Positions 1 to 21,018 of a stretch of 21,038 bases of DNA are shown piece by piece. Every line of letters starts with the position of its first letter. The stretch's first letter is position 1. Position numbers and translations under genes: made by a program. The stretch is from NCBI GenBank assembly GCA_003563255.1, contig PWSL01000139.1, positions 1 to 21,038 on the forward strand. The letters run 5' to 3'. Source of the DNA: Desulfonatronospira sp. GTDB lineage: Bacteria; Desulfobacterota; Desulfovibrionia; Desulfovibrionales; Desulfonatronovibrionaceae. A model generated the notes under the pieces. It saw only the letters and a list, made by a program, of their open reading frames with translations. It was not told the DNA's origin and searched no databases.

Positions 1-120
1 GGACTGGCTCTTCCGGGACCCACTTGTCCCAAAAAATGAGATATTTTAAGCACAAAATGATGCTCAAGTGGGTCCCGGAGTGCCTGTCCCCTGCTTTCCT
101 TAAAAGCGCTAAACAGATAC
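1..120 (+). repeat. Type A repeat, core ii hairpin (left end outside window)
   Basis: The window opens inside a composite element. The left arm GGACTGGCTCTT is followed by a 14-bp perfect inverted repeat, CCGGGACCCACTTG at 13-26 and its complement at 65-78. The right arm TGCCTGTCCCC and the terminal repeat AAAAGCGCTAAACAGATAC end at 120. The same design recurs at 12399-12550 and 12753-12903, which supports the boundary at 120. The left terminal repeat lies before base 1, so its target duplication cannot be checked here. Confidence 0.85.
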
Positions 121-130
121 ACGGATTATT

Positions 131-186
131 ATAATAAGTGCGGGGAGCCAGTCGCCTTCCAGCTAAAATAAAGTGTTGCTGTAGTG
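131..186 (+). repeat. Half of a type B repeat with core i arm
   Basis: AATAAGTGCGGGGAGCCAGT is followed by a decayed B end finishing in GCTGTAGTG. It matches the reverse complement of the left half of the complete copy at 20877-21018, including the CTTCCAGCTAAAATAAAG stretch. No left half is present. The type A element at 1-120 directly precedes it and may have been inserted into this B element, as seen clearly at 12280-12575. A weaker GTTCGCTGTTGTG echo follows at about 188-200. Confidence 0.7.
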
Positions 187-256
187 ATATATGTTCGCTG
201 TTGTGTTATTAAGCTTAAGAGATTGTTATTCGGACAGAGTTTAAAGGAGGAGTGTT

Positions 257-2176
257 ATGGAAGACAAAGGTGCCCTTGACTCTTTACTGCAAGAGGAAAG
301 GATTTTTCGACCGCTGCCCCAGATGGTAATCGATGCCAACATCAATCCGCAGGAGCATTCTGCGGTGATGAAGCAGTGCCAGGAAAACTACCTGGACTAC
401 TGGGAGGATGCAGCTAAGGAACTGGATTGGTTCAAGAAGTGGGACAAGGTTCTGGATGATTCCGAGGCCCCCTTCTACAAGTGGTTTACCGGGGCCAAGT
501 GCAATATCGTGTACAATGCCCTGGACAGGCATATCACCACAGCCAACAAGAATAAGCTGGCCCTTATCTGGGAGGGCGAACCCGGAGATACAAAAAAGTT
601 TACTTATTACGAACTTTACCGGGCAGTAAACAGGTTTGCCAATGCTCTGCGCTCCCTGGGCATAAAGAAAGGCGACCGGGTAATTCTTTACATGCCCCCG
701 CTCCCAGAGACCATGATATCCATTCTGGCGGTAGCCAAGATTGGTGCTGTGCACAGCATGGTCTTTGCAGGTTTTTCCGCCAAGGCCCTTCGGGAGCGCA
801 TCCAGGACACCGAGGCCAAGCTGGTCATCACTGCCGACGGTTTTTACCGCAACGGCCGCCCGGCCAACGTCAAGAACCTGGTGGACAAAGCTCTGGTGGG
901 CGGATGTGAAAGCGTGGACACAGTGGTTGTAGTACACCGGGCAGGCGTGGAAGTCGAAATGACCGAAATGCGCGATATCTGGTATGAGGATCTGATTCGC
1001 CAGGAAAGCCCGGTTTCAGAGACTGAGGTCATGGACTCTGAAGACATGCTGTTTTTGCTTTACAGTTCCGGCACCACCGGCAAGCCCAAGGGCATCGTGC
1101 ACACCCATGGGGGTTACATGGTGGGTGTCAATCGTTCCCTGAACTGGATTTTCGATATCAAGCCCACGGATATTTTCTGGTGCACTGCAGACATGGGCTG
1201 GATCACCGGGCACAGCTACGTGCTATACGGTCCGCTTATGGCCGGGACCACCACCATGCTTTTTGAAGGCCATCCCCTGTATCCCCAGGCGGACCGGCTT
1301 TGGCAGATGGTGGCCCGCTACGGAGTGACCATCTTTTATACTGCTCCCACCCTGATTCGCATGCTCATGCGTTTCGGCAGCCAGTACCCCAAACAACACG
1401 ACCTTTCCACCCTGAGACTGCTTGGCAGCGTGGGTGAGCCCATCAACCCCGAGGCATGGATGTGGTACTACAACAATATCGGTCGCGCCGAATGCCCCAT
1501 AATCGATACCTGGTGGCAGACGGAAACCGGTTCGGTCATGATCAGTCCATTTCCTATCACCCTGCTCAAGCCCGGATCCTGCGGCAAGCCTCTGCCGGGA
1601 ATCGAGGCCGACGTGGTGGACAACGAAGGCACCCCTGTACCTCCGGGCAAGGGAGGGCAGCTTATTATTAAGAATCCCTGGCCTTCAATGCTTCGCACCC
1701 TTTACAAGGACCCGGAGCGCTACAAGAAGACCTATTGGGAAAAAATACCCGGAGTATACCTGGCCGGTGACGTAGCCCGCAAGGATCAGGACGGCTATTT
1801 CTGGATCCAGGGCCGCTCCGACGACGTTATCAGCATCGCCGGACACAGGGTGGGCTCAGCTGAAATCGAAAGCGCCCTGGTATCTCACAAGGCCGTGTCC
1901 GAAGCTGCAGTCATCGGTGTCCCTGACAAGATCAAGGGCGAAGTGGCCAAGGCCTTTGTCACTCTCAGTGCTGACCACACTGTTGATGATCCGGACGAAC
2001 TCATTAAGACTCTCAAGTCCCATGTAAGATCCGAGCTTGGACCTGTGGCGGTAATCAAGGGTATCGAATTCACGGAGAAATTGCCCAAGACCCGCAGCGG
2101 CAAGATTATGCGCCGGGTGCTCAAGGCCCAGGAAATGGGCGAAGAAGTGGGAGATACCTCCACCCTGGAAGACTGA
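257..2176 (+). CDS. acs: Acetyl-CoA synthetase (AMP-forming)
   Basis: This is a 639-residue ANL-superfamily enzyme that activates acetate to acetyl-CoA through acetyl-AMP in the cytoplasm. Visible motifs are the P-loop-like YSSGTTGKPKG (269-279), WWQTETG (419-425; the tryptophan at this site narrows the pocket to acetate in known Acs enzymes), the hinge/A8 region GRSDDVISIAGHRVGSAEIE (519-538), and the A10 motif PKTRSGK with catalytic, normally acetylatable Lys616. The length is close to the roughly 650 residues usual for Acs, so it looks complete. The ATG is set by a strong AAAGGAGGAG about 5-8 bases upstream. It stands alone, bounded by repeat elements on both sides, so it is probably a single-gene unit. 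An acetate/propionate generalist is the only serious alternative. Confidence 0.95.
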   Translation: MEDKGALDSLLQEERIFRPLPQMVIDANINPQEHSAVMKQCQENYLDYWEDAAKELDWFKKWDKVLDDSEAPFYKWFTGAKCNIVYNALDRHITTANKNKLALIWEGEPGDTKKFTYYELYRAVNRFANALRSLGIKKGDRVILYMPPLPETMISILAVAKIGAVHSMVFAGFSAKALRERIQDTEAKLVITADGFYRNGRPANVKNLVDKALVGGCESVDTVVVVHRAGVEVEMTEMRDIWYEDLIRQESPVSETEVMDSEDMLFLLYSSGTTGKPKGIVHTHGGYMVGVNRSLNWIFDIKPTDIFWCTADMGWITGHSYVLYGPLMAGTTTMLFEGHPLYPQADRLWQMVARYGVTIFYTAPTLIRMLMRFGSQYPKQHDLSTLRLLGSVGEPINPEAWMWYYNNIGRAECPIIDTWWQTETGSVMISPFPITLLKPGSCGKPLPGIEADVVDNEGTPVPPGKGGQLIIKNPWPSMLRTLYKDPERYKKTYWEKIPGVYLAGDVARKDQDGYFWIQGRSDDVISIAGHRVGSAEIESALVSHKAVSEAAVIGVPDKIKGEVAKAFVTLSADHTVDDPDELIKTLKSHVRSELGPVAVIKGIEFTEKLPKTRSGKIMRRVLKAQEMGEEVGDTSTLED

Positions 2177-2238
2177 TCCATAAGGGCCTTCAATCCTGGA
2201 GGCAATAAAGTTGACTTGAGGGCGAAATTCGATTTTTA

Positions 2239-2522
2239 GTATCTGTCTAGCGCTTTTAAGGAAAGCAGGGGACAGGTACCCCCGCACTTATTTTAAAATG
2301 GTCTACCACTACTGCGACACTTTATTTAAGCTGGAAGGGGACTGGCTCACCGCACTTATTTTGCTTACAGAAGACTGACGGATTTTAAAAATAAGTGCGG
2401 GGTGCCTGTCCCCATAGGCCGAGGCGGCAATTTACACAAGTGTCGCTGTAGTGCTACGTTTACTTGGAAAAATAAGTGCGGGGTGCCTGTCCCCGAGCCA
2501 CATGCAAAGCGCTAAACAATAC
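2239..2522. repeat. Type A repeat interrupted by a type B repeat
   Basis: The left end GTATCTGTCTAGCGCTTTT at 2239 and the right end AAAGCGCTAAACAATAC at 2522 are type A termini. Between them is a core i hairpin whose loop is split by a complete type B element (2307-2453). The flanks GATTTTTA (2231-2238) and GATTTTGA (2523-2530) agree at 7 of 8 positions, consistent with an aged 8-bp target duplication. The whole block fills the gap between acs and the phosphate permease gene. Confidence 0.8.
2307..2453. repeat. Complete type B repeat with core i hairpin
   Basis: It begins CACTACTGCGACACTTTATT and ends GTGTCGCTGTAGTG. Inside are GGGGACTGGCTC, the stem CCGCACTTATTTT paired with AAAATAAGTGCGG, and GGTGCCTGTCCCC. 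It is bordered on both sides by CTAC (2303-2306 and 2454-2457), a 4-bp direct repeat. Removing the element and one CTAC restores a continuous type A loop. Confidence 0.85.
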
Positions 2523-2584
2523 GATTTTGAACAGTTTCGCCCTCAAGTTTTTGGTGTGTTTCTTGCGGGGCTAGCTACTTTACC

Positions 2585-2589
2585 AGGGG
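2585..2589 (+). promoter_or_regulatory. Ribosome binding site deciding a TTG start
   Basis: AGGGG lies 6 bases before the TTG at 2596. The first in-frame ATG (2629) would remove eleven residues of the first membrane segment and has no comparable site upstream, so the TTG start is preferred for the phosphate permease gene. Confidence 0.6.
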
Positions 2590-2595
2590 TGCAGG

Positions 2596-4672: not shown

Positions 4673-4680
4673 GCCTGCCT

Positions 4681-4838
4681 GTAACCATTCAGGGGGGCAG
4701 GTACCGGCCAGGGGGACAGTCCGCGCACTTATTTTTTTTTGATGAACAATTTACAGATGTGAGCGTTAGAAAAATAAGTGCGGGACAGTCCCCTGGCCTT
4801 GTGCCATTAGCCACAACCGAGGACCCCCTGAATGGTTC
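4681..4838. mobile_element. Type C MITE-like repeat with perfect 8-bp target duplication
   Basis: The terminal inverted repeats are GTAACCATTCAGGGGG at 4681 and CCCCCTGAATGGTTC ending at 4838. Inside, GGCCAGGGGGACAGTCC and GGGACAGTCCCCTGGCC frame a core i stem (CGCACTTATTTTT from 4724, complement ending 4782). Perfect direct repeats GCCTGCCT flank it (4673-4680 and 4839-4846). Ends starting GTAA plus 8-bp duplications are the hallmark of IS66-family transposition, so this is probably an IS66-mobilised non-autonomous element; that link is inference. The right duplication overlaps the last base of the helicase stop codon. Confidence 0.8.
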
Positions 4839-4845
4839 GCCTGCC

Positions 4846-7347
4846 TTATGTGGCATCCTGCTTGTTTAGTACCCGCAGATGTGCCATGACCATTTTTATT
4901 TCTCCATAAGAATAAGCATCCCCAAGCTTTCTTTTGGCCTGGCCCAGGGACTTTTCCGGTACTGCCTGCAGAACCCGCGAGATGTTTTGCTGTTTTCCGG
5001 AGTCCATCACCTGGCTGATGTCGACTTCTCCTGTCTCAATAAAGGTGCTCAGATGTTCTTCAATGGTTGAAGGTGCCAGGCCTCTTTCTTCTGCTATTTT
5101 GTGGATGCCCTTGCCTTCTTTAAACAATGCCAGGGTGGTCTGCCTGGTGGCAGACAGACTTCTGGTGTGCAGGTCGGCCGGGTCCCGGTCCAGACTGTTC
5201 ATAGCCTGGTCTGCAGCAGGCTTCAGGATGTCGTGTCTGCTCATGTATTCTAGTATAGCTGCAATTATTTCGCTGCCGAACTTATCAACGGTTATTCTGC
5301 CGATTCCACTTATATGCAGCAGTTCTTTCCGGCTACAGGGCAGGGCATTGACTACCCGCACCAGGGTCTGCTGGTGCAGAACCTGATAAACCGCAATATT
5401 CTTTTCCCGGGCCTTTTCCAGACGCCATTTTTTCAGGATCTTGAAGAGTTCGGGGTGCTCAATGTCAGAAGGTACAATCTCCCGGGATGATTTTTTCTTG
5501 CCGCGGTCAGAGTCAAAATCAACTTCCGCCCTCGAAACCGCCTGTAGATATGCCTGGGACGAAAAGCCCTTTTCACATGACATTATGCCTGCCAGTTTTA
5601 CATGCAGTTCTTTTTGAACCTCAAGCAGGTTTCCCTCAGCCTTTTGCAGGAGTTCTCTGTTGTCCGAGTCCAGCTTGATTTCCCCAAGAGGCCGGACCAG
5701 CAGGTTTTGCAGTCTCTCCTGGAACCATGCCGAAGCCTTCTGAAGACGCTGCTGCAGAAGCTCATTGTCCTGTGGAAGCTGATGCTCATCAAAGAGGTTT
5801 TTCAGTTCTCTTGAAAATATTTCGCTGACTTCGAATATATACCCTGCGGAGTTCCGTCCCATTCCCGGCATCTCCTGAACACCATCAACCCGTAAAAGGC
5901 CGGGATTATCATCCAGGGACCGCAGGAGGTTCTGCAGGTGTTTTTGAAGCCCTGACAGGTCAAAGCATTCCAGCAGCAGGTCGTGCTGGTAGCTGATTTT
6001 GGCGGTTTGGAGCTTTTCAAGGGAAGGCGGGTTTTGCCTGGCCTGGATGGTGAAGTCCTGGACTTTAGAGTCTGTTGCAGGTCCCCGGGGTGTGAGGGGT
6101 GAAGTAAGCACCAGGCCCTCCAGGGTCTTGCACCGGCTCAGTGCAACGTATATCTGGCCATGGGCGAAAGCTGCCCCGGCGTCTATGACAGCCCTTTCAA
6201 AGGTCAGACCCTGGCTTTTGTGGATGGTAATGGCCCAGGCCAGTTTCAAGGGGTACTGGTGAAACTCACCGGTGACCTTTTTTTCTATTTCCAGGGTCTG
6301 GGGGTTAAGATCGTATTTTATGTTTTCCCATACTGCGGGTTCCACGGTTATTTCACGTGCGTCTCCAGGGCAGGAGACCACGATCTCCTTGTCAGTCACC
6401 CGGGTTACGTGGCCGATTTTGCCGTTGTAATATTGCCTGGCCGGGCTGAAGTCGTTACGTATAAACATGACCTGGGCCCCTTTTTTGAGCACCAGTTCAG
6501 AAGCTGCAGGGTAAAGGTGTTGAGGAAAGTCCCCGCTTACCCTGGCCGTGAAAGTGAAAGTTTCGTCTTTGAGGTTTTGCAGCCTGGACTGGTTGATGGA
6601 TTCGGCAATGCGGTTGTGGGTGGTCAGGGTGATGTATCCCTGGTCATCAGTGGGGGAAAAGCCTTCAATAAAGCGCTGGTTGAGTGCCTGCAGACAATAC
6701 TGGTCCAGGCGATTATCTCTGACCCGGTTCAGGATTTCAATAAATTCCTGATCCGACTGGCGGAAAATATGCTTCAGTTCCACTGTGACCATCTCTGTCC
6801 GCTTCAGGGCATTGCTGCTGAAAAAGTACGGGGAGTCATAATGCTCCCGGATCAGCTCCCACTCATCTTGTTTGACCACCGGCGGAAGCTGGTGCAGGTC
6901 TCCGATCATAAGCAGCTGCACCCCGCCGAAAGGCTGTCTGCTGCGTCGGAGCCGGCGCAGGGCGGTGTCTACACTGTCCAGAAGATCGGCCCGGACCATG
7001 CTTATCTCGTCGATGATCAACAGGTTCATGCTCTGGATGATTTTTAGCTTCTGCCTGCTGAACCGGAACTGGCTCCGGCCGTTATCGCTGCTAAACCCGC
7101 TTCCTGGCAAATTGGTTCCCAGGGGAATTTGAAAAAAGGAGTGCAGGGTCATTCCGCCCGCGTTGATGGCGGCAACCCCTGTGGGGGCTGTAACCACCAT
7201 ACGCTTGCCGAGGTTGTCCCTCAGATTGTGCAGAAAGGTGGTTTTGCCGGTTCCGGCCTTGCCCGTCAAAAAGATGTTGCAGTTGGTATGACGGACAAAA
7301 TCGTGGGCAAGCTGCAGTTCTGGATTGGTCTCATGGCTTTGGGACAT
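4846..7347 (-). CDS. PIF1-like helicase with HRDC and C-terminal helix-turn-helix domains
   Basis: An 833-residue superfamily 1B DNA helicase. Walker A GKAGTGKTT is at 29-37, Walker B LLIIDEISMV at 109-118, motif III GDLHQLPPV at 149-157, HKSQG at 376-380 and motif VI YVALSRC at 400-406, so the ATPase and translocase core looks intact. Residues 450-625 have no family I recognise and contain helical, charged stretches. An HRDC-type nucleic-acid binding domain follows (about 631-703), then a helix-turn-helix domain of the HTH_40 kind (about 730-828). It probably acts on DNA structures in replication or repair. The ATG has AGGA 6 bases upstream. The SIMPL gene lies upstream in the same direction, but a repeat element separates the two. 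A type C element abuts the stop codon. Confidence 0.9.
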   Translation of the reverse strand: MSQSHETNPELQLAHDFVRHTNCNIFLTGKAGTGKTTFLHNLRDNLGKRMVVTAPTGVAAINAGGMTLHSFFQIPLGTNLPGSGFSSDNGRSQFRFSRQKLKIIQSMNLLIIDEISMVRADLLDSVDTALRRLRRSRQPFGGVQLLMIGDLHQLPPVVKQDEWELIREHYDSPYFFSSNALKRTEMVTVELKHIFRQSDQEFIEILNRVRDNRLDQYCLQALNQRFIEGFSPTDDQGYITLTTHNRIAESINQSRLQNLKDETFTFTARVSGDFPQHLYPAASELVLKKGAQVMFIRNDFSPARQYYNGKIGHVTRVTDKEIVVSCPGDAREITVEPAVWENIKYDLNPQTLEIEKKVTGEFHQYPLKLAWAITIHKSQGLTFERAVIDAGAAFAHGQIYVALSRCKTLEGLVLTSPLTPRGPATDSKVQDFTIQARQNPPSLEKLQTAKISYQHDLLLECFDLSGLQKHLQNLLRSLDDNPGLLRVDGVQEMPGMGRNSAGYIFEVSEIFSRELKNLFDEHQLPQDNELLQQRLQKASAWFQERLQNLLVRPLGEIKLDSDNRELLQKAEGNLLEVQKELHVKLAGIMSCEKGFSSQAYLQAVSRAEVDFDSDRGKKKSSREIVPSDIEHPELFKILKKWRLEKAREKNIAVYQVLHQQTLVRVVNALPCSRKELLHISGIGRITVDKFGSEIIAAILEYMSRHDILKPAADQAMNSLDRDPADLHTRSLSATRQTTLALFKEGKGIHKIAEERGLAPSTIEEHLSTFIETGEVDISQVMDSGKQQNISRVLQAVPEKSLGQAKRKLGDAYSYGEIKMVMAHLRVLNKQDAT

Positions 7348-7424: not shown

Positions 7425-7591
7425 GTATCTGTTTAGCGTTTTGCATGTGGCATGGGGACTGGCTCTCCCCGCACTTATTTTTTCCAATAATACCAAGATC
7501 ATTTATAATAAAAATAAGTGCGGGGGTGCCTGTCCCCAATTGAGGTGCAATATTATATTTTATAAGTTTCGCTGTAGTGCTAAACAGATAC
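7425..7591. repeat. Hybrid type A/type B repeat with core i hairpin
   Basis: The left end is type A (GTATCTGTTTAGCGTTTTGC). The right side reads TATAAGTTTCGCTGTAGTG, a type B end, running straight into CTAAACAGATAC, a type A end. The interior holds GGGGACTGGCTCTCC, the core i stem and GTGCCTGTCCCC. The flanks CTATTTTC (7417-7424) and CTTTTTTC (7592-7599) match at 7 of 8 positions. It fills most of the 300-base gap between the SIMPL and helicase genes and could form a strong hairpin in the SIMPL transcript. Confidence 0.8.
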
Positions 7592-8377: not shown

Positions 8378-8403
8378 GTATCTGTTTAGCGTTAAACAGA
8401 TAC
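8378..8403. repeat. Bare type A palindrome (two termini, no core)
   Basis: GTATCTGTTTAGCG is fused directly to TTAAACAGATAC, giving a 26-bp near-perfect palindrome that consists only of the two type A ends. The flanks share CTGAGT (8371-8376 and 8405-8410) within 8-bp windows that match at 6 of 8 positions. It appears to be an internally deleted type A element and sits 16 bases upstream of the SIMPL start codon. Confidence 0.75.
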
Positions 8404-8646: not shown

Positions 8647-8801
8647 CACTACAGCGAAACTTATGACTGACCTCCGGGGACTGGCTCTCCCCGCACTTAT
8701 TTTTCCCAATAAAACCAAGATCATTTGTAATAAAAATAAGTGCGGGGGTGCCTGTCCCCAATTGAGATACGTAATTATATTTTATAAGTTTCGCTGTAGT
8801 G
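8647..8801. repeat. Complete type B repeat with core i hairpin
   Basis: It begins CACTACAGCGAAACTTATGA and ends TATAAGTTTCGCTGTAGTG. Inside are GGGGACTGGCTCTCC, the core i stem with the common loop (CCAATAAAACCAAGATCATT), and GTGCCTGTCCCC. It is flanked by TTAT direct repeats (8643-8646 and 8802-8805), consistent with a 4-bp target duplication. It lies between the divergent SIMPL and FadL-type genes. Confidence 0.88.
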
Positions 8802-10455: not shown

Positions 10456-10499
10456 TTCAATTTCTGGCAGTAATTGTGGTGAACTACAGCGAAACTTAT

Positions 10500-10675
10500 G
10501 TAACCATTCAGGGGGGCAGATACCGGCCCGGGACAGTCCCCGCGATACCTTTTCTGCACAAATAAAAAATGACAAATGCGCAGTTGTGTGCACCTGCACA
10601 GCTAGTACTCAGCGGGGAACAGTCCCCAGGCCTTGTGCCAGTAATCACCACCGAGGACCCCCACTGAATGGTTAC
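10500..10675. mobile_element. Type C MITE-like repeat, diverged core
   Basis: The ends are GTAACCATTCAGGGGGGC and CCCCCACTGAATGGTTAC. The sub-terminal arms CCGGGACAGTCCCCGC and AGCGGGGAACAGTCCCC match those at 4681-4838, but the core stem differs. After removing the B element next to it, the flanks read AAACTTAT and AGTTTTAT, only 5 of 8 alike, so the copy is old or the duplication is lost. Confidence 0.7.
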
Positions 10676-10828
10676 CACTACAGCGAAACTTACTTATTGA
10701 CCTCCGGGAACTGGCTCTCCCCGCACTTATTTTTTCCAATAAAACCAAGATCATTTGTAATAAAAATAAGTGCGGGGGTGCCTGTCCCCAATTGAGATAC
10801 CCTGTATTTTATAAGTTTAGCTGTAGTG
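10676..10828. repeat. Complete type B repeat with core i hairpin
   Basis: CACTACAGCGAAACTTACTT through TATAAGTTTAGCTGTAGTG, with the same arms, stem and loop as the copy at 8647-8801. It is bordered by TTAC at 10672-10675 and 10829-10832. The left TTAC is the end of the adjoining type C element, so this B copy inserted into the type C terminus. Confidence 0.88.
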
Positions 10829-11978: not shown

Positions 11979-12068
11979 TGATGCGAGTCGTTTTAAGCAC
12001 AAAATGATGCTCAAGTGGGTCCCGGAGTGCCTGTCCCCTGCCTTCCAAAAAAAGCGCTAAACAGATAC
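11979..12068. repeat. Right half of a type A repeat with core ii
   Basis: From the loop (GTTTTAAGCACAAAATGATG) through CAAGTGGGTCCCGG, TGCCTGTCCCC and AAAGCGCTAAACAGATAC ending at 12068. The left stem and left end are missing. The element begins about two bases after the stop codon of the DUF362 gene. Confidence 0.75.
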
Positions 12069-12161: not shown

Positions 12162-12215
12162 TCACGCCTTCAGCGTGATTGCCAACAATCACCATCGAGG
12201 TCCCCCTGAATGGTT
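12162..12215. repeat. Right half of a decayed type C repeat
   Basis: CACCATCGAGG and CCCCCTGAATGGTT (12202-12215) match the right portion of the type C copies at 4681-4838 and 10500-10675. A TCACGC/GCGTGA hairpin (12162-12178) occupies the place of the core. No left terminus was found. Confidence 0.55.
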
Positions 12216-12279
12216 GCGTCTGAATGACGAATAAGTACTGGACAGGCCATAATTGATTGTACTATGTTGATTGCTCTTT

Positions 12280-12575
12280 GCTTCAGCGAAACTCATTATT
12301 GACCTCCGGGAACTGGCTCTTTTGCCGCTGGTGTGCCCGGCCGTTTTACGGTTAGAAGTTCGGCAAAAGTGCCTGTCCCCGGTGGTCTAATTATTACAGT
12401 ATCTATTTAGCGCTTTGGATGTGGCATGGGGACTGGCTCTTCCGGGACCCACTTGTCCCAGAAAATGAGTCATTTTGAGCACAAATTGATGCTCAAGTGG
12501 GTCCCGGAGTGACTGTCCCCTGCTTTCCTTAAAAAGCGCTAAACAGATACTTATCACAAAGGTGTCGCTGTAGTG
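12280..12575. repeat. Type B repeat with core iii, interrupted by a type A repeat
   Basis: The left part (CTTCAGCGAAACTCATTATT, GACCTCCGGGAACTGGCTC) is a decayed B end carrying a different core: TTTTGCCG (12320-12327) with CGGCAAAA (12361-12368), followed by GTGCCTGTCCCC. The matching right B end GGTGTCGCTGTAGTG finishes at 12575. A complete type A element with its duplications lies between, so A jumped into B. Confidence 0.75.
12399..12550. repeat. Complete type A repeat with core ii hairpin
   Basis: GTATCTATTTAGCGCTTT through AAAGCGCTAAACAGATAC, 152 bp. It has GGGGACTGGCTCTT, the 14-bp core ii stem and a GTGACTGTCCCC right arm. The flanks TTATTACA (12391-12398) and TTATCACA (12551-12558) agree at 7 of 8 positions. 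Confidence 0.88.
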
Positions 12576-12752: not shown

Positions 12753-12903
12753 GTATCTGTTTAGCGTTTGCATCTGGCACAGGGACTGGCTTTTCCGGGA
12801 TCCACTTGCCCCAAAAGATGGGACGTTTTTGAGCATAAAATGATGTTCAAGTAGGTCCCGTAGTGCCTGTCCCCTGCTTTCCTTAAAAGCGCAAAACAGA
12901 TAC
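12753..12903. repeat. Complete type A repeat with core ii hairpin at the small gene's stop codon
   Basis: GTATCTGTTTAGCGTTTGC through AAAGCGCAAAACAGATAC, 151 bp. The core ii stem carries two changed pairs, one of which still pairs as G-U in RNA. The flanks TAGCCGTC (12745-12752) and CAGCTGTC (12904-12911) differ only by two T/C transitions. The TAG of the left flank is the stop codon of the small basic protein gene. Confidence 0.85.
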
Positions 12904-13068: not shown

Positions 13069-13219
13069 GTATCTGTTTAGCACTACTGCGAAACTTATAT
13101 ATTGACCTCCGGAGACTGGCTCTCCCCGCACTTTTTTTTAATTCGGTCATACATCCTTCAGAAAAATAAGTGCGGGAAGAACCAGTCCCCGTACCAAATG
13201 CAAAGCGTTAAACTGATAC
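13069..13219. repeat. Hybrid type A/type B repeat with core i hairpin
   Basis: GTATCTGTTTAG runs directly into CACTACTGCGAAACTTAT, so a B left end is inserted in an A left end. The core i stem follows (left arm partly decayed, CCGCACTTTTTT), then AACCAGTCCCC and a pure A right end AAAGCGTTAAACTGATAC. No B right end is present. The flanking 8-mers (TTTTTTGG, CTTATATG) match poorly. Confidence 0.75.
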
Positions 13220-13712: not shown

Positions 13713-13830
13713 CACTGCAGCGACATTATAAAAGTCTTCCTCTGAGCCTGAATCCGTGCAGTTCTTTTTTTTACGGATTCAGGTTAAAAAATAAATACGG
13801 GATGCCTGTCCCCGGTGGCCGAGTGACAGG
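13713..13830. repeat. Decayed type B repeat with an alternative hairpin
   Basis: CACTGCAGCGACATTATAA at 13713 resembles a B left end. CCTGAATCCGT (13747-13757) and ACGGATTCAGG (13773-13783) form an 11-bp perfect stem. AAAATAAATACGGGATGCCT then echoes the core i right arm, and GTCCCC follows. No right terminus is visible. The stem could also help to end fmdB-type transcription, though no T-run follows on the plus strand. Confidence 0.5.
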
Positions 13831-13882: not shown

Positions 13883-15175
13883 ATGATAGAAAGATATACA
13901 AAAAAGGAAATGGGCGAACTATGGACCCAGGAAAACAGGTTCCGGGCCTGGCTGGAGGTGGAGCTGGCCATATGCGAGGCCTGGCATGAGCTGGGAGCCA
14001 TCCCTGCAGGGGACATGGAAAACATTCGCTCCAGGGCGGACTTTGAACTGCATCGCATACTGGAGATAGAAGAAAGGACCAAACATGATGTCATTGCTTT
14101 TTTATCCGCAGTGGAAGAAAAGGTAGGATCCTCCGCCCGCTACATCCATCTCGGATGCACCTCGTCTGATATTGTTGATACCGCCAATGCACTTCTCCTG
14201 TACAGGGCCGGGAAAATTATCGCCAAAGCTCTGGAAGAGCTTATGGAGTCTTTGTCCGGACTGTCCCGGCGCTACAGGGGCCGGCTCATGATGGGGCGCA
14301 CCCACGGCATTCACGCCGAACCTATAAGTTTCGGACAGAAAATGGCCGGCTTCTACGCAGAAATGCGCAGGCACCAGGTTCGATGGGAGGCTTCCCTGGA
14401 GCAGATCCGGGTTGGAAAGATATCCGGTGCTGTGGGCACCTATGCCCACCTGGATCCGGAGTTGGAAGAACGGGCCTGCAAAAAGCTGGGACTGGAGGTA
14501 GACCCTGTTTCCACACAGATTGTGCAAAGAGACCGCTATGCCGATTATTTCACCACTCTTGCCCTGATGGCAGGCGGCATTGAGCGCTTGTGCGTGGAAC
14601 TCAGGCATTTGCAGCGCACCGAAGTCCTGGAGGCCGAAGAAGGGTTTACCAAAGGCCAGAAGGGATCATCCGCCATGCCCCACAAGAAAAATCCCATTTC
14701 CGCCGAAAATCTTACCGGGCTTTCACGCCTGGTGCGCAGCAATGCGCTGGCGTCCATGGAAAACATGGCCCTGTGGCATGAGCGCGACATCAGTCATTCC
14801 TCGGTGGAAAGGGTAATCATGCCGGATTCCACTATCCTGATGCACTACATGCTTACCCGGCTCAAGGGGGTTCTGGACAGGCTGCAGATTAACGAATCCA
14901 ACATGGAGCACAACCTGGACCTGTCCATGGGCCTGTACTTTTCCCAGAGAGTCCTTCTGGCCCTGGTGGAGAAGGGGCTGGAACGGCAAGAGGCCTACGA
15001 ACTGGTACAGGAGGATGCCATGTACTGCTGGGACCACAAGATAAATTTTCCGGACAGGGTCCGTGAAAATCAGAAAGTCCTTGAGCATCTTACCCAGGGA
15101 GAACTGGACCAGATATTTGACAGGGGATACTATCTCAAACACGAAGATCTGGTTTATAAAAGGGTGTTTAATTAG
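13883..15175 (+). CDS. purB: Adenylosuccinate lyase
   Basis: A 430-residue enzyme of the fumarase/aspartase superfamily. It catalyses two steps of purine synthesis: SAICAR to AICAR plus fumarate, and adenylosuccinate to AMP plus fumarate. Signature elements are HLGCTSSDIVDTANA (89-103), MGRTHG (137-142, with the catalytic histidine) and the mobile signature loop GSSAMPHKKNP (261-271) carrying the catalytic serine. The length is the usual 430 for the short bacterial form. The RBS is weak: only GAGG about 19 bases upstream. Even so, the ATG is the natural start because the family begins MIERYT. The stop codon shares a base with the pyrE start, indicating a coupled operon. Confidence 0.96.
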   Translation: MIERYTKKEMGELWTQENRFRAWLEVELAICEAWHELGAIPAGDMENIRSRADFELHRILEIEERTKHDVIAFLSAVEEKVGSSARYIHLGCTSSDIVDTANALLLYRAGKIIAKALEELMESLSGLSRRYRGRLMMGRTHGIHAEPISFGQKMAGFYAEMRRHQVRWEASLEQIRVGKISGAVGTYAHLDPELEERACKKLGLEVDPVSTQIVQRDRYADYFTTLALMAGGIERLCVELRHLQRTEVLEAEEGFTKGQKGSSAMPHKKNPISAENLTGLSRLVRSNALASMENMALWHERDISHSSVERVIMPDSTILMHYMLTRLKGVLDRLQINESNMEHNLDLSMGLYFSQRVLLALVEKGLERQEAYELVQEDAMYCWDHKINFPDRVRENQKVLEHLTQGELDQIFDRGYYLKHEDLVYKRVFN

Positions 15176-15750
15176 TGCAGACTTCAGATCTAAAGGCCAG
15201 GCTGGCTGGACTGCTGTATCACAAATCCTATCAGGAAGGCGATTTTATCCTTACTTCCGGTAAAAAAAGCGATTATTATTTCGATTGCAAGCAGACAGCT
15301 CTGCATCCTGAGGGAGCTTATCTACTTGGCCGGATCTTCCTGGACATGCTGTACAAATGTGCAGAATATCCGGATGGAGCAGGCGGCATGACCCTTGGTG
15401 CCGATCCTCTGGTAAGCGCGGTTACTGTCATGTCTTACCTCGACAACCGTCCCCTGCCCGGTTTTATAGTCCGCAAAGAGCCCAAGGGTCATGGTACAGG
15501 ACAGTTCCTGGAAGGCATGGCCAATTTCTATCCAGGGCAGAAGGTGTGTCTTCTGGAGGATGTAATAACCACCGGCGGGACTCTTCTTACAGCCTGTCAA
15601 AGGGTCAGTGATGCAGGGCTGGAGGTCAAGCTCATTCTATGCGTGCTGGACCGTCAGGAGGGCGGTACCGAAAACATACTCCAGGCCGGATATGACCTGC
15701 AATGCATATTCACCCGCAATAGCCTGCTGGAGGCAGCCAAAGGTGCATGA
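15175..15750 (+). CDS. pyrE: Orotate phosphoribosyltransferase
   Basis: A 191-residue type I phosphoribosyltransferase that joins orotate and PRPP to form OMP in pyrimidine synthesis. The PRPP-binding motif LLEDVITTGGT is at 126-136. GLLYHKSYQEGDFILTSGKK (12-31), DYYFDCK and the flexible-loop region RKEPKGHGTG (100-109) are typical of OPRTase. The GTG start at 15175 overlaps the purB TAG by one base (TAGTG), with AGGG 10 bases upstream, so expression is probably coupled to purB. The length is in the usual range of about 185-215. The lipoprotein gene follows with no gap. Confidence 0.95.
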   Translation: MQTSDLKARLAGLLYHKSYQEGDFILTSGKKSDYYFDCKQTALHPEGAYLLGRIFLDMLYKCAEYPDGAGGMTLGADPLVSAVTVMSYLDNRPLPGFIVRKEPKGHGTGQFLEGMANFYPGQKVCLLEDVITTGGTLLTACQRVSDAGLEVKLILCVLDRQEGGTENILQAGYDLQCIFTRNSLLEAAKGA

Positions 15751-16332
15751 ATGCCATTCTGGTGCAAGCTGCTTATTCTCATTGGAATAGCGACCATTAT
15801 TAGCTCCTGCCAGGGGCACAGGGCGACTGATTTTTTATGGCCGGAACTGGGGGATTCTTACATACAGACCACCAGCGATTGGACCAGACAGGATTCTTTG
15901 CATTCAGGACTGGATACCATGATTATCGCTAGGGCTACATACAAAAGTCCGGAATGGATGCAGGCTTATGCCGAAAAGAAGGCCTCTGATTATGGCCTCA
16001 CAGAAGATGAGAAAACCAAGCTGCAGGAGGACCTGCAATATTCTCTGCAACAGGAGACAGAAATATTTCTGGCCCTTTTCAAGGGTGACAAGGCCCGGAG
16101 CAGGCTGGTCTTTGAGGACCCTTTGTGGTCCATATTTGTGCTGAAAAATGATAAAAAATTATATCCTCTTGAGGTGCGGGAAAGCAGGGAGCCACTTGCC
16201 AAGCTGAAATCCTTCTACCCGTACGCCAACAGATGGCAGGATCATTATGTCCTGAGATTTCCTGCGTTACAGGCAGATTCTTTTGAACTGGTCATGTCCG
16301 GACCTTTGGGCAGAATTGAACTCAGCTGGTGA
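15751..16332 (+). CDS. Putative lipoprotein of unknown function
   Basis: I do not recognise a family. The 193-residue product begins with a hydrophobic signal segment and a lipobox-like ISSC with Cys20, so it is probably a lipidated envelope protein. The mature part is mixed, with a helical, charged region (about residues 70-105, including EKTKLQEDLQYSLQQETE) and a C-terminal beta-like end (RFPALQ to RIELSW). The ATG directly follows the pyrE stop (TGAATG), with AAAGGTG 5 bases upstream inside pyrE. Its downstream partner is an L,D-transpeptidase-like gene, which points to an envelope role. The neighbours give the only functional clue. Confidence 0.75.
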   Translation: MPFWCKLLILIGIATIISSCQGHRATDFLWPELGDSYIQTTSDWTRQDSLHSGLDTMIIARATYKSPEWMQAYAEKKASDYGLTEDEKTKLQEDLQYSLQQETEIFLALFKGDKARSRLVFEDPLWSIFVLKNDKKLYPLEVRESREPLAKLKSFYPYANRWQDHYVLRFPALQADSFELVMSGPLGRIELSW

Positions 16333-16339
16333 GGTGTTC

Positions 16340-17605
16340 TTGAGGACAGTCATTCTTTTACTCTTGCTTTTTACCTGGCCCTTGCCGGCCCAGGCCTGGC
16401 AACCCGTCATCACAGGCAACTCCAAAGCCCCTGAAAGGCTTTTGGTGGTGGACAAGAAAAACCAGTCTTTTTTTGTTTTTTCCAATAAAAGCCCTTTGAT
16501 AAAAGAATATCAGTGGCAGTGCACTACCGGAGAAGGCCTGGGGGATAAGGAACTGGAAGGAGACCTAAAGACCCCGGAAGGCATATATTTCATTGAGCGA
16601 AAAATTGACACCAGTTACATGGACCGGGAACTTTACGGGGAAATGGGTCTGACACTGAACTATCCCAACCCTGTGGACAGGGCTAAGGGCAAGACAGGCT
16701 TCGGCATCTGGATACATGGCCGGGGAAAGGAAGTCGTGCCTTTTGATACAGAGGGATGTGTGGCCATGGATATGAAATATATGTATAAACTGGAGGAAAT
16801 GGTCAAGCCGTGGTATACTCCGGTGATTATAACATCCACCATGGAGTGGATTCCTGACGAGATAGAGCTGGAAAAGTCACGGAAAATCGCCGATCTGAGC
16901 AGAAACTGGGCCCGGGCCTGGGCTGATGCAGCGGACGACTACTTTTCTTTTTATGCTCCGGACGAGTTTTCCAGAAGCAGTGCTCAGAGTTTTTCAAGTT
17001 TCAGGGACCACAAGAAGAGCCTTTTTCAGGCATATGACTGGATAGATGTATTTATAGAAGACCCCAAGGTGCTGCAGGGTCCGGATTACTGGGTGAGTTA
17101 CTTCGGACAGATTTTCAATTCATCCGGTTTTTTTTCCGGGGGAATTAAAAGGCTGTACTGGCAGAAGGACGAATCCGGGCAACTCAGGATAGTCGGCGAA
17201 GAGTTTCGCAATCTGAATAAGCCGGGCCTCCTGGATAATTATCGCCTTAAGCGGGGGGAAGAACTTGAGCAGGTTCTGGAAAAATGGCGCAAGGCCTGGC
17301 TGAAGGCTGATGTTGATAAATATGCCTCATTTTACCACCAGGGCGCTGTTCAAAATAATTTAACCGGTCTGGATAATATATTATCCCAGAAAAGGGATCT
17401 CTGGAGCAGGGGTCATGTTCCGGCTTCCATCGAAATCTCGCAGGTGCAGACGGAGGTGAGCGAAAACAGTTTTGAAATCAGCTTCAAGCAGGCATACTCC
17501 AGCAAAACCGGTTACCGGGACAAGGGTTTTAAAACCCTCAGCCTGGTCCCGAAAGCAGGCGGTAACTGGCTGATTTTGCATGAAGACTGGACAGAGATCA
17601 GATAA
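16340..17605 (+). CDS. L,D-transpeptidase/carboxypeptidase-like (YkuD) protein with two NTF2-like domains
   Basis: A secreted YkuD-family peptidoglycan enzyme candidate. From the TTG at 16340 it has 421 residues, starting with a signal peptide (MRTVILLLLL to AQAW). The YkuD domain covers about 31-175. It includes TGEGLGDKELEGDLKTPEG and the catalytic segment WIHGRGKEVVPFDTEGCVAM, with His126 and Cys140; the canonical S/T-H-G-C is here T-E-G-C. Two related NTF2/SnoaL-like modules follow (about 189-293 and 311-421), each beginning with a Trp-Ala-rich helix. A C-terminal NTF2-like domain occurs in the L,D-carboxypeptidases Csd6 and Pgp2 that shape helical cells. The start is uncertain: GTG 16334 or TTG 16283 in frame are alternatives, and GAGGTG sits 3 bases before 16340. 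Confidence 0.82.
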   Translation: MRTVILLLLLFTWPLPAQAWQPVITGNSKAPERLLVVDKKNQSFFVFSNKSPLIKEYQWQCTTGEGLGDKELEGDLKTPEGIYFIERKIDTSYMDRELYGEMGLTLNYPNPVDRAKGKTGFGIWIHGRGKEVVPFDTEGCVAMDMKYMYKLEEMVKPWYTPVIITSTMEWIPDEIELEKSRKIADLSRNWARAWADAADDYFSFYAPDEFSRSSAQSFSSFRDHKKSLFQAYDWIDVFIEDPKVLQGPDYWVSYFGQIFNSSGFFSGGIKRLYWQKDESGQLRIVGEEFRNLNKPGLLDNYRLKRGEELEQVLEKWRKAWLKADVDKYASFYHQGAVQNNLTGLDNILSQKRDLWSRGHVPASIEISQVQTEVSENSFEISFKQAYSSKTGYRDKGFKTLSLVPKAGGNWLILHEDWTEIR

Positions 17606-18309
17606 TGGGTAAGAAATACAGCGTGCTCCTGATGCGGGACGATACCTCTGTTAGAAGGTTCAGGGTGCGTCCCTTCTGGATCAAGTTTTTTGCTCTTTTT
17701 TTTGTCATTCTGGGGATTGTTGCGGGTGCAGGGGTTTACTTCAGCGTGTTGTTTTTTCAGGAAAAAGAACAGCTGGAAACCAGGCTGCAAAGAGTATCCG
17801 GCAAACTGGAGCAGACCGCGAAAGAACTGGAGAATAAAAGAAATCTACAGGCTGTATTTGAAACCTATGAAGCCCGTGACCTGCATTCATTGTTAACTGT
17901 CCCTGATGCATACCGGGAAAGCTCAACTGTGCTGGATCTAAGTGAAGTGTTTGCATATAAAGACAAAAGGATTGTCAGTATAGATAATATTCAGGCAAGC
18001 TTCAATAATGACAGAATGAGGGTCCAGCTTGAAATCAACAACCTGATGGAAGGCGAAACAATTAGCGGCCGTGTATTTCTGCATGTTGTGCGCAGAGACG
18101 GTGGCCAGGTGGACCTGGAGCTGGAACATGAGGACCTTTACTATACCATTGCCAGGTTTAAAGAAGTGGATGTAACCTTCCAACTCCCTGGAAGCTTGGA
18201 CCCTCAAAACATTTTCGCCCTGCGCATCAAGGTCGAGAATGATGACCAGGAGCTTATCTACAGCGAGACCTTCCCCCTTTCCAATATCCTGGTGCAACGG
18301 ATTCAATAG
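17605..18309 (+). CDS. Membrane-anchored coiled-coil protein of unknown function
   Basis: No family is recognised with certainty. The 234-residue product has a short basic cytoplasmic N-terminus (MGKKYSVLLMRDD, then RRFRVRP) that resembles the N-termini of membrane-bound M23 peptidases. One membrane helix (about 25-50) and a short coiled coil (about 52-80, with EQLETRLQRVSGKLEQTAKE) follow, and then a beta-rich periplasmic domain (about 100-230). There is no M23 catalytic motif. It starts at the ATG in TAATG, overlapping the L,D-transpeptidase stop by one base, so the two are translated together and may act together in the envelope. The last 56 bases overlap the 3' end of the convergent pseudouridine synthase gene. 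Confidence 0.75.
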   Translation: MGKKYSVLLMRDDTSVRRFRVRPFWIKFFALFFVILGIVAGAGVYFSVLFFQEKEQLETRLQRVSGKLEQTAKELENKRNLQAVFETYEARDLHSLLTVPDAYRESSTVLDLSEVFAYKDKRIVSIDNIQASFNNDRMRVQLEINNLMEGETISGRVFLHVVRRDGGQVDLELEHEDLYYTIARFKEVDVTFQLPGSLDPQNIFALRIKVENDDQELIYSETFPLSNILVQRIQ

Positions 18310-19183
18310 CTTCGGCAGTCGGGGCGAAATCCCCTGTCCAGTCCGGCAACAGCCGGAATTCATGACCCGGCCAGGACAGCATACAGGCATGCAGCAGCAT
18401 CTTGCTGCACTCTCCGGTACGGCCGTATTTGCAGTCACCTATTATGGGGTGTCCGCTCAGGGAAAGCTGGACCCTGATCTGGTGAGTACGTCCTGTAAGT
18501 ATTTCTATCTCTGCCAGGGTTTTGCCCTTGCGGTTCGTTATGGCTCTGACCCTGGACAAGGCCGGTTTTCCACGGGGTGAGGACTGCATCATTTCATGGG
18601 TCTTCAGGAGCCTGTGCTCCAGCTTGACCCATCTGGAAGGCCATGGGCCATGAATCCAGGCCAGGTAGAGTTTTTGTACCCGGTTACTTTTCCATGCCTG
18701 GTGCATGCTTTTGAGCCAGGTGTAGTTTTTGGCGGCCAGAAGAAGACCGGAGGTATCCTTGTCCAGTCTGTGCACCAGGGAAGGTGAGAAATCCACTCCG
18801 GCGTAGTGCTTGCGCAGGCGAAGGACCATGTTGTCCCTGCGGGCCGAGGTACCGGAATGAACAGGTACTCCTGCGGGCTTGTTGAGGACAACAAAGTCAT
18901 TGTTTTCATGCACTATGTCCAGATCCCCGGCCCGCTGAGGATCATCTCCGGTTTCCGGATAATGAGGTGGAATACGAACCGTATCCCCGGAATATACCCG
19001 GTCGTAAGGCTTGCTTCTTTTGCTGTTGACCCTGACCTGACCGGTACGTATGAGTCGCATAATACCTGAACCTGGAAACTCTTTGCCAAGCACCCTTTTC
19101 AGGTAGGAAAAGAGTTTCTGACCCGATTCAGAAGGGGTTACACGGCACTGCCGGGCTGTCTGCTTCTGGATGTTTCCGGACAA
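18254..19183 (-). CDS. RluC/RluD-family pseudouridine synthase
   Basis: A 309-residue RNA-modifying enzyme. An S4-like RNA-binding domain lies at about 15-75 (RLIRTGQVRVN). The pseudouridine synthase domain follows: VLNKPAGVPVHSG (99-111), the catalytic HRLDKDTSGLLL (138-149) with Asp141, KLYLAWIHG, and TGRTHQIRVQLSLSGHPIIG near 230-250. Uridines in 23S rRNA are the likely target, but the exact site cannot be told. The only in-frame start before the S4 domain is a TTG at 19183, with no good Shine-Dalgarno, 8 bases after the stop of the upstream FG-GAP gene, so translation is probably coupled. The 3' end overlaps the convergent gene by 56 bases. Confidence 0.92.
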   Translation of the reverse strand: MSGNIQKQTARQCRVTPSESGQKLFSYLKRVLGKEFPGSGIMRLIRTGQVRVNSKRSKPYDRVYSGDTVRIPPHYPETGDDPQRAGDLDIVHENNDFVVLNKPAGVPVHSGTSARRDNMVLRLRKHYAGVDFSPSLVHRLDKDTSGLLLAAKNYTWLKSMHQAWKSNRVQKLYLAWIHGPWPSRWVKLEHRLLKTHEMMQSSPRGKPALSRVRAITNRKGKTLAEIEILTGRTHQIRVQLSLSGHPIIGDCKYGRTGECSKMLLHACMLSWPGHEFRLLPDWTGDFAPTAEAIESVAPGYWKGGRSRCR

Positions 19184-19191
19184 GACTGGTT

Positions 19192-20787
19192 CTAAAACTC
19201 CATTTTATAAGCCAGCAAGATGGTTCTTTGTTCCTGCATACCGGTTATGCCGGGATGGGTATTTACGCACACTACCAGTTCTTTCCGGCCGTCCCCATCT
19301 ATGTCGTAAAGACCGAAGTCTTCTATGCTGGCCTTGATGCGCCGGGTGTTCCAGTGCAGATTTAGTCCTATTTCATCCCAGAACAGGGCGTGGATCTCGC
19401 CCTCGGGAAAATTGCGGTATCTTTGAAAGACACTGGCCAGACGCCCTGAAAAGTGCTTATGGGCCAGAAGATGATATTCATCCTGGCCTTCAAACCGGGC
19501 AGTTATCAGTCTTGTGGGGATATAGTAGTAGCTTACCTCTCTTTCTCTGGGAGACGGCTGTCCCATTCCAGGCATCCTTTCGTCTGTCTCTATGCCCAGT
19601 CCTGAACCGGCATATTCCTCGCTTGTAGTATAACGTCGATTGTTGTTGGAATATACCTCCAGACGATCATTGTCTGCTACAACCACCAGGTGGTCGTCGT
19701 TTCTTGGAAGGAAGGCAAAGTTAAAGATATTGGCTTTGTCTGGCAGTGTTATGCCCCGGCCTAGTTCCGGCCCATTGCTGGTCATCATTACTTCCTGAAC
19801 GCCGCCGGGTCTGAACAACCTGGTCCCGCTCGAGAGAGGCTGCCCCACCAGGGTGTGTTTGTATTGAGGAGGTACTTTTACCACGTTCATGAAAAAAGTA
19901 ATCCTGAGATGCATCTCCTGGAACTCGTTGTTTTTAAATCCCAGGATATATGACCTGGCCCGCTTATCCTGGATTGCAGAGACTATAATTTCCTTTTCCC
20001 CGTTGTTGTTGATGTCAAGCAGGTTTATGTTGAGGTTCTGATATGTTCCCGGGGCCTCGTAAGTACTTATGTGCTGCAGGCGCTTTTCGTGCATGCGGTA
20101 GGCATGCAGCCTGCGCTGGCTCAGGATGAATATGTTTTTTTCTCCGCTTCCCTGGGTGTCGCCTACTGCCACTCCGACACTGGAGAATGGGAGAGTCTGG
20201 CTGCGCCACCTGCCGGTTGCCTGGGGATCATCCTGGAATTGAAAGTGGGGGCTGATATAGGCCTCATCTTCGGGTGGAGCTTCGGCAACCGGTCCAACAG
20301 GTGTCAAGTCTTCCAGGTCGTCTTGATCCTCAACCCCTTTAATCACCATGGCTGTAAGTTCTTGAGCCAGGTCTTCCAGGTCAGGAATGAGCTGCCCCAG
20401 TGAACTCTCCCTGTCAAGCCTTTGGCGCTCCATATCGGGGCCCACAACGTATATTTCCAGGTTGCAGATGTTATTTACAATATTGGCCACGCCGTAAACC
20501 AGAAAGTCAGCATCGAGCTGGGCGGCGATCATGAGCGCTTCATCTTCTGTGGCAGGGGGGGTGTCGACTAGCTGGTTGACTTCACCGGGGGGGATGGGCG
20601 AAGTCTGTCCAGTGCGTGTCAATCTGGAACTGAGCATGGACTGAATACCCTGTTTTAAATAGGCATATTCTTGTGGTCCATATATTTCTATGGGCATGAC
20701 TGCATATTTTTTAGGCCCATGTCCAGCCCAGACCTGGGTACTAAAGGCCAGCAAAAAAATCAGAAAAAACAGAACTATTTTTGGCAT
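19192..20787 (-). CDS. Secreted FG-GAP/VCBS-repeat protein with FlgO/CsgG-like N-terminal region
   Basis: A 531-residue exported protein. The signal peptide runs from MPKIVLFFLIF to about STQVWAG. The N-terminal region (about 25-150: KYAVMPIEIYGPQEY, then LKQGIQSMLSSRL, then LDADFLVYGV) resembles the nucleotide-binding-like fold of the FlgO/CsgG/TolB-N group. A linker is followed by beta-propeller-like repeats with Asp-rich loops such as DINNNGEKEIIV and DIDGDGRKELVV, typical of FG-GAP/VCBS calcium sites. The ATG at 20787 is preferred over the one at 20796, because GGAGG lies 9 bases before it and touches the earlier ATG. The function is unknown; surface or periplasmic structure is likely. 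It heads a two-gene unit with the pseudouridine synthase. Confidence 0.82.
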   Translation of the reverse strand: MPKIVLFFLIFLLAFSTQVWAGHGPKKYAVMPIEIYGPQEYAYLKQGIQSMLSSRLTRTGQTSPIPPGEVNQLVDTPPATEDEALMIAAQLDADFLVYGVANIVNNICNLEIYVVGPDMERQRLDRESSLGQLIPDLEDLAQELTAMVIKGVEDQDDLEDLTPVGPVAEAPPEDEAYISPHFQFQDDPQATGRWRSQTLPFSSVGVAVGDTQGSGEKNIFILSQRRLHAYRMHEKRLQHISTYEAPGTYQNLNINLLDINNNGEKEIIVSAIQDKRARSYILGFKNNEFQEMHLRITFFMNVVKVPPQYKHTLVGQPLSSGTRLFRPGGVQEVMMTSNGPELGRGITLPDKANIFNFAFLPRNDDHLVVVADNDRLEVYSNNNRRYTTSEEYAGSGLGIETDERMPGMGQPSPREREVSYYYIPTRLITARFEGQDEYHLLAHKHFSGRLASVFQRYRNFPEGEIHALFWDEIGLNLHWNTRRIKASIEDFGLYDIDGDGRKELVVCVNTHPGITGMQEQRTILLAYKMEF

Positions 20788-20796
20788 GTAAGACAT

Positions 20797-20801
20797 CCTC
20801 C
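20797..20801 (-). promoter_or_regulatory. Ribosome binding site deciding the FG-GAP gene start
   Basis: On the minus strand GGAGG is immediately followed by ATG (20796), leaving no spacing. The next in-frame ATG at 20787 is 9 bases away and is followed directly by the signal peptide, so it is the better start. Confidence 0.6.
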
Positions 20802-20876
20802 ATGTGGTGGGCTTGCCCTTGACGGTAATATGTTCATTGTCCTAGAGCAGGCAAGTGTTTGTCAATATGAATTTAA

Positions 20877-21018
20877 CACTACAGCGATACTTTATTTTAG
20901 CTGGAAGGGGACTGGCTCCCCGCACTTATTTTTATTAAAAATGATCTTGGTTTTATTGGAAAAAATAAGTGCGGGGAGAGCCAGTCCCCGCAGGTCAATC
21001 ATAAGTTTCGCTGTAGTG
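20877..21018. repeat. Complete type B repeat with symmetrical core i
   Basis: CACTACAGCGATACTTTATT through CATAAGTTTCGCTGTAGTG. Both arms are of the ACTGGCTC kind (GGGGACTGGCTCCCCGC and GCGGGGAGAGCCAGTCCCC), unlike the usual ACTGGCTC/GTGCCTGTCCCC pair. The loop is the reverse complement of that in the copies at 8647 and 10676. The flanks are TTAA (20873-20876) and GTAA (21019-21022), 3 of 4 alike. It lies upstream of the minus-strand FG-GAP gene. Confidence 0.82.

Follow-up and report, generated by a model that had tools for sequence, protein, structure and literature searches.

Two classes of small bacterial repeat are usually kept apart: miniature inverted-repeat transposable elements (MITEs) with target-site duplications, and hairpins associated with Y1 transposases. 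Among the latter, the TIRYTs (terminal inverted repeat-associated tyrosine transposases) are Y1 enzymes, probably of subclass 2.1 (PMC6006769), whose flanking inverted repeats share the motif GGGGWSAS (PMC3733652); some of these repeats contain self-complementary tracts, and dispersed families of them stand in dimers or clusters. Bacterial interspersed mosaic elements (BIMEs) and REPINs (doublets of repetitive extragenic palindromes, REPs) are hairpins linked to Y1 transposases (PMC3116915; PMC2817692), and BIMEs with the REPs of two REP-associated tyrosine transposases (RAYTs) are reported in Stenotrophomonas (PMC2817692). The streptococcal BOX elements are MITE-like and modular, and in Streptococcus suis the same boxB modules can be bounded by either of two sets of ends (PMC3049150). 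TIMEs (Tn3-derived inverted-repeat miniature elements) and related mosaic transposons are non-autonomous shells with 38-bp Tn3-type ends that mobilise plasmid segments and yield mosaics (abstract of PMC4133298). Here we analyse a repeat family, with hundreds of small non-coding copies in the genome, in a 21,038-nucleotide stretch of the soda-lake bacterium Desulfonatronospira sp. (contig PWSL01000139.1, the window hereafter), in which several MITE families enclose Y1-like hairpins, so that the two classes are joined. Its chimeric copies probably arose when one hairpin-bearing MITE nested in another of a separate family and the two hairpins then recombined.

As in TIRYT repeats, a foot of these hairpins, GGGGACAG, fits GGGGWSAS, and Y1 transposases are encoded in the genome. 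TIRYT repeats flank a transposase gene, whereas the hairpins here form the interior of other mini-transposons and none was found alone; their F1 foot, GGGGACTG, departs from the motif at one base, and the Y1 proteins of the genus are candidate TIRYTs only. BIMEs and REPINs differ from these repeats in their GTAG-type tag. To our knowledge, neither is enclosed in shells with target-site duplications. The likeness to BOX elements is one of design: boxB copy number varies as tandem modules, whereas here a single hairpin, which can be of several types, normally fills the interior, the ends come from families with different duplications, and nests and their products are both visible. The S. suis elements are a precedent, and the statement in a preliminary description of this sequence that no named family has such a design was too strong. 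Hairpin exchange is absent from the abstract on TIMEs (PMC4133298). The literature searched, which left most subscription papers outside, contained no description of a set of MITE families whose interiors are interchangeable Y1-type hairpins, no GTGCCTGTCCCC string and no paper pairing Desulfonatronospira with a MITE phrase.

The window is contig C176 of a fragmented metagenome-assembled genome (MAG; 532 contigs, 3.52 Mb). Judged by acetate-CoA ligase, its closest named relatives are Desulfonatronospira MAGs, with T1Sed10_59 at 96% protein identity (records of the genome itself were possibly excluded). Gene order in the window is mostly conserved in the near-complete congener G006 (five contigs), where the intervals corresponding to the repeat-bearing gaps are mostly short or different. 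By eye, all ten gaps longer than about 150 bp between the open reading frames taken as genes hold at least one repeat copy or fragment, and copies total about 15 to 18 depending on how nests are counted; positions 13883-20796 contain neither such a gap nor a copy. Genome-wide, terminus A has 496 matches at up to one mismatch (259 + 237; reversed control 0) and GTGCCTGTCCCC has 549 exact matches (control 1), far above controls. This confirms the repeat family as first described, some fifteen copies filling nearly every gap. In the other 296 genomes of the phylum draw, close relatives excluded, GTGCCTGTCCCC occurs at most 7 times each, and the exact A terminus is present in 4 of 30 relatives besides the genome itself, spanning two genera. 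The window gives no Rfam match at gathering scores. All copy counts refer to copies related by descent.

Shells were sampled in 88 loci (685,589 bp, with A over-represented) by pairing termini no more than 330 bp apart. Pairs with both flanks numbered 43 for A, 40 for B and 19 for C, and most paired copies measured 130-180 bp. Exact 8-bp direct repeats abut 20 of the 43 A pairs (27 at up to one mismatch; shuffled-flank mean 0.54) and 5 of the 19 C pairs (shuffled mean 0.27). The B pairs have exact 4-bp duplications in 24 of 40 cases (shuffled mean 3.31), 23 of the 24 being NTAN. Because duplications of a length fixed for each family abut their ends, A, B and C are the ends of separate mobile mini-transposon families. 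Furthermore, the site of the A copy at 2239-2522 is empty in T1Sed10_59 (contig L090, identical to L204 and counted once) and in G006, where the aligned flanks meet. The duplications and this site, empty in two relatives, bear out the MITE-like nature of the shells. The three terminal types proposed at the outset are real, but the set is larger: B comprises at least two subfamilies, B1 and B2, with a common terminus and different arms, a fourth and less characterised shell family, D, was detected, and several copies are nested or truncated. In A and D shells (L014 533-671, L282 7865-7942 and others), an extra module of about 31 bases (GGCTTCCTGCCCGGAGGC...CCCGGAG) stands between arm and foot.

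IS66 was considered as the source of the A and C ends. An IS66 element of the genome on C430 has ends GTAACTTC (start GTAA) and an 8-bp duplication, CAAAAACA, and nine G006 copies begin GTAAGCG. The GTA starts and 8-bp duplications suggest a resemblance to A and C only; beyond the first bases, the terminal repeat of A and C is common neither to this element nor to nine of the 16 G006 IS66 matches, and on these ends the proposal found no support. The C430 element (L149) apparently lies inside the loop of an A-like element with a fourth core type.

The joining of different families is most visible at A/B junctions. A genome-wide search for the outermost 12 bp of A (GTATCTGTTTAG) running straight into a B end, with two mismatches allowed, gave 26 places, against 0 for the reversed control. 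All 26 were read by eye, and the junction lies at a TTAG within the A terminus, which fits the B target type. In four (L282, L320, L324, L325) the nest is intact: a complete B element interrupts the A end, has TTAG on each side and is followed by the remainder of A. A further ten are completed chimeras, in which the 12 bp of A lead into half a B element, then a hairpin (lacking a core in two cases), a left A half (AL) and an A end; the other twelve are cut by a contig end, more complex or unclassified. Among the ten chimeras, an exact 8-bp duplication flanks four (L315, L322, L017, L018), a one-mismatch duplication four (L323, L331, L334 and window 7425-7591), and no duplication two (L321 and window 13069-13219). 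No pair of complete chimeras is alike above 86%; because all ten differ, chimeras arose on repeated occasions. The converse arrangement is seen at L215 5646-5812, where a right A half (AR) lies inside B ends and the duplication is an exact CTAA. Across all hairpins with both halves classified, 14 of 111 join different families, one of them by an AR label (L274) that is doubtful by eye. Both feet are F1 in all six left-left chimeras.

Three feet occur: F1 (GGGGACTGGCTC), F2 (GGGGACAGGCAC) and F3 (GGGGAC[A/T]GTCCC), the last chiefly in C. They follow the half-shells closely (arms at up to one mismatch): F1 accompanies AL in 79/82, B1L in 44/45 and B2L in 26/27, while F2 accompanies AR in 79/85, B1R in 36/36 and B2R in 23/24. 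DNA folding z-scores against shuffled sequence, for single examples, are -6.75 for core c2, -7.44 for c1 and -3.95 for c3, with the C type folding weakly (-2.15). At least one recognised half-shell adjoins 137 of the 140 hairpins with F1/F2 feet, and the remaining three are in shells by eye. These counts of feet and hairpins leave out Cx/Cr arms and unclassified arms with two mismatches.

Cores are distributed unevenly among these shells. The 61 A-family shells without conflicting halves contain c1/c1b in 34, c2 in 25, c4 in two and c3 in none; the 60 corresponding B-family shells contain c1/c1b in 30, c3 in 28 and c2 in two. Fisher values for this distribution overstate the independence of the copies, which share descent. 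Core c1 is found across A, B1, B2 and C shells, although only 2 of 31 C shells in the sample have a c1-type stem, with loops unlike those of A and B. One cluster of 28 similar cores comprises 14 in A, 7 in B1, 3 in B2, 3 in chimeras and 1 unassigned, and 41 cross-shell core pairs reach at least 90% identity with loops included (36 of A with B1 or B2, 5 of B1 with B2). It is at the foot that shared sequence gives way to unrelated sequence, as in L277 8215 (B1) against L009 2408 (A), whose cores are 97% alike. Exact duplications surround A shells with c1 (7) and c2 (10) and B shells with c1 (14) and c3 (10); the mixed-half entries of this survey include false B2L calls, and only L017 and L215 were used from them. 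In the eight largest core clusters, orientation within the shell is kept in 91 of 96 units (133 of the 140 units were orientable).

The window itself has nine typed, intact hairpins with F1/F2 feet: c1 in B1, in B2 and in A/B1 and B1/B2 chimeras, c2 in A and c3 in B1. In G006, 51 units include A shells with c1 (4) and c2 (11), B1 shells with c1 (9), c3 (6), F3-framed interiors (3) and bare palindromes (2), and C shells with c1 (4), other (10) and bare (2) interiors; the best A/B core identity there is 93%. The interchange of cores between ends, as first proposed, is therefore partly supported: c1 is present in several shells and 14 of 111 units combine half-shells of two families, whereas c2 and c3 are almost confined to one shell family each. 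A strict tie of each core to one terminus, which would have counted against the proposal, is contradicted by c1 but almost describes c2 and c3; exchange has thus been limited.

The shells with their duplications, nests still intact, completed chimeras, core lineages in common and repeated chimera formation are all seen directly, and the route that we propose would connect them as follows. The starting shells are several separate bacterial MITE families (A and C with 8-bp duplications, B with 4-bp NTAN duplications, and D), in each of which a constant interior position is taken by a hairpin of the Y1 (TIRYT/REP) kind with foot GGGGACAG or GGGGACTG, which each would at some stage have gained. 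Shells would often insert into one another, B particularly at the TTAG of the A terminus, and the two hairpins of a nest would then act as direct repeats. Deletion between feet or stems would remove half of each element and leave a chimera, in which the remaining halves of A and B enclose a hairpin with either core. Host recombination or replication slippage could make the join, cores may pass from B to A by the same route, IS66-like transposases may move A and C, and a chimera with two A ends might move on. The natural series of empty site, nest and chimera makes the origin of mosaic repeats readable. Since the chimeras retain only about 12 bp of one A terminus, new MITE families could, if these copies are mobile, form by swapping nearly the whole interior. 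Such chimeras can also mislead repeat annotation and short-read assembly.

Several observations weigh against this route and keep our confidence short of firm. One nest, L332, was deleted outside the feet, and two right-right chimeras (one label doubtful) have F1/F2 rather than F2/F2 feet. None of the 51 G006 units joins halves of different families, although G006 does contain one A/B junction, in which a C is nested. The only two cross-shell core pairs at 100% both involve A copies with damaged outer ends, and intact ones reach 97%; c2 and c3 are strongly shell-bound. Among the IS66 (PF03050) and Y1 families, the only ones searched, no autonomous element turned up with the ends of A, B or C, and the suggestion that transposases would have ends matching A, B or C found no support in these two. 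The 8-bp duplications were rejected as proof of chimera movement: an A element altered in place would leave the same mark, and no near-identical complete pair exists. They rule out false joins, not formation in place, and chimera mobility is accordingly conjectural.

The first alternative is that foot, core and foot are cut out and reinserted as one block by the Y1 (RAYT/TIRYT) transposases of the genus, so that cores move between shells by single-strand transposition. The frame is indeed read as a Y1-type hairpin foot, because of the GGGGWSAS fit, the motif GGGACAG beside Y1 genes, GGGGACAGCCAC arrays and compact hairpins. Of 16 Y1 genes inspected from G006 and the window's genome, 15 are preceded by GGGACAG, with no inverted partner found there; other G006 Y1 types, such as L157 and L162, lack the motif upstream. 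Near-identical Y1 genes in G006 (L175, L176, L177, L178, L179, L181) start at GAAGAAGGGGACAGTC in 6 of 8 cases. In two genomes of one other genus (L226, L236; G105, G070), a Y1 gene lies between inverted GGGGACAGCCAC arrays with varying stems, and a compact hairpin with both feet and a loop of 5-6 bases occurs in 6 of 395 phylum genomes and is absent from the window's own. These findings bear out the REP-like character of the hairpins. Y1_Tnp matches number 31 in G006 and 4 in the genome of the window. A 306-aa G006 Y1 protein scores above the Y1_Tnp cut-off and below that of REP_Tyr_transpos (57.6 of 80 bits), with no match to an HTH such as subclass 2.1 has at its C terminus, and another Y1 protein matches HTH_23 at cut-off; on these matches, a TIRYT as the cognate enzyme is putative. 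The near-identical Y1 genes of G006 number eight, six with the shared start motif GGGGACAGTCTC; one full-length gene per REP type is usual according to PMC6006769.

Transfer of blocks by Y1 enzymes would also agree with the mostly constant orientation of cores within shells. Its difficulty is that the block is not seen to travel: none of the 140 F1/F2 hairpins in the 685,589 bp lies outside a shell (three placed by eye, unclassified two-mismatch arms dropped), and the notion of a free-moving REP was rejected on that ground. Likewise, a shell end is close by for 61 of the 64 F3 palindromes in this genome and 66 of 68 in G006, compared with 481 of 1,500 random places. A double GGGGACTGTCCC palindrome with no shell end within 220 bp was noted in two genomes (L124 3680-3710 and L144 15188-15219). 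None of the genes in 24 Y1 loci (20 from G006, 4 from this genome) is ended by F1/F2 hairpins; in L161 an A shell stands some 175 bp upstream, and L032 has B ends on both sides. Nests and their deletion products account for the chimeras with no Y1 enzyme, and we regard Y1 block transfer as unlikely. A two-enzyme system, in which DDE-type transposases would move the shells while multicopy Y1 enzymes recognise the GGGGAC feet and exchange the cores, seems improbable to the same degree; if true, vehicle and cargo would be moved by different transposases.

A second alternative is a scenario with no core shuffling: each shell family would have captured its hairpin once, and the likeness of cores would reflect an old common hairpin and convergence of stems. 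The near family-specificity of c2 and c3 and the distinct c1 loops of C copies agree with it, but the 41 cross-shell pairs, alike through their loops, and the existence of nests and chimeras do not, and single capture is very unlikely.

Chimeras with unlike termini could be misassemblies, and the whole set might in principle be an artefact of short-read contigs misjoined at 140-bp repeats. The assembly has 532 contigs, and in at least five of them (C63, C74, C89, C95 and C109 of the window's genome, G000) an A end stands within about 104-107 bp of the contig start; some of this fragmentation is probably due to the repeats. The lack of cross-family units in the five-contig G006 points the same way. 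A false join, however, would yield neither 8-bp duplications, present at up to one mismatch around 8 of the 10 chimeras, nor a TTAG on both sides of nested B elements, and A and B1 share cores in G006 as well. The chance of a general artefact is therefore slimmer still. A single ordinary insertion sequence, broken up into these blocks, would suit their terminal inverted repeats and duplications, but with three termini whose duplications differ in length or target, and arms unrelated between families, it can be dismissed as extremely improbable.

The copies identified in the window are listed in Table 1. The right end of the C copy at 4681-4838 was set by eye and is one base short of the computed pairing.

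Table 1. Repeat copies and fragments in the window, with strand and flanking evidence.
Feature	Position	Strand	Evidence or remark
A shell, c2 core, cut by window start, inside core of B2 element	1..120	-	by eye
B2 remnant: right stem of c1-type core, F1-like foot, B2L arm, B terminus	127..186	-	by eye
A shell (AR, F2, c1, F2, AL)	2239..2522	-	duplication GATTTTTA/GATTTTGA, 7/8 by eye; site empty in L090, G006
B2 element, c1 core, nested in c1 loop of A copy 2239..2522	2307..2453	+	duplication CTAC
C shell, F3 feet, c1-type stem	4681..4838	+	duplication GCCTGCCT at 4673-4680 and 4839-4846
A/B1 chimera: AL, F1, c1, F2, B1R, outer 12 bp of A	7425..7591	+	flanks CTATTTTC/CTTTTTTC, 7/8
Coreless A palindrome, 26 bp	8378..8403	.	
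B1 shell, c1 core	8647..8801	+	duplication TTAT
C shell, two F3 palindromes, B end adjoining at 10482	10500..10675	+	
B1 shell, c1 core, target = end of neighbouring C copy	10676..10828	+	duplication TTAC
Truncated A: c2 right stem, F2, AR, A terminus	11987..12068	+	left limit by eye
C end fragment	12193..12217	-	
B copy (B1L, F1, c3, F2, B2R-like right arm), split by nested A	12279..12575	+	
A shell, c2 core, nested in right arm of B copy 12279..12575	12399..12550	+	flanks TTATTACA/TTATCACA, 7/8
A shell, c2 core	12753..12903	+	flanks TAGCCGTC/CAGCTGTC, 6/8
A/B1 chimera: outer 12 bp of A, B1L, F1, c1, F1-like foot, AL	13069..13219	+	flanks unmatched
Decayed copy: c1-like stem, F2 foot, B2R arm start	13757..13823	+	
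B2/B1 chimera (B2L, F1, c1, F1, B1L)	20877..21018	+	

Two further observations concern the surroundings of these copies. A elements lie inside B-type cores at nearly the same position, with an offset of one base, in the window (1-186) and in L017 (15027-15324). Between the C copy and the first A/B chimera, the window encodes a PIF1-type helicase with HRDC and HTH_40 domains (4846-7347); at the corresponding site in G006, the flanking genes are just 106 bp apart.

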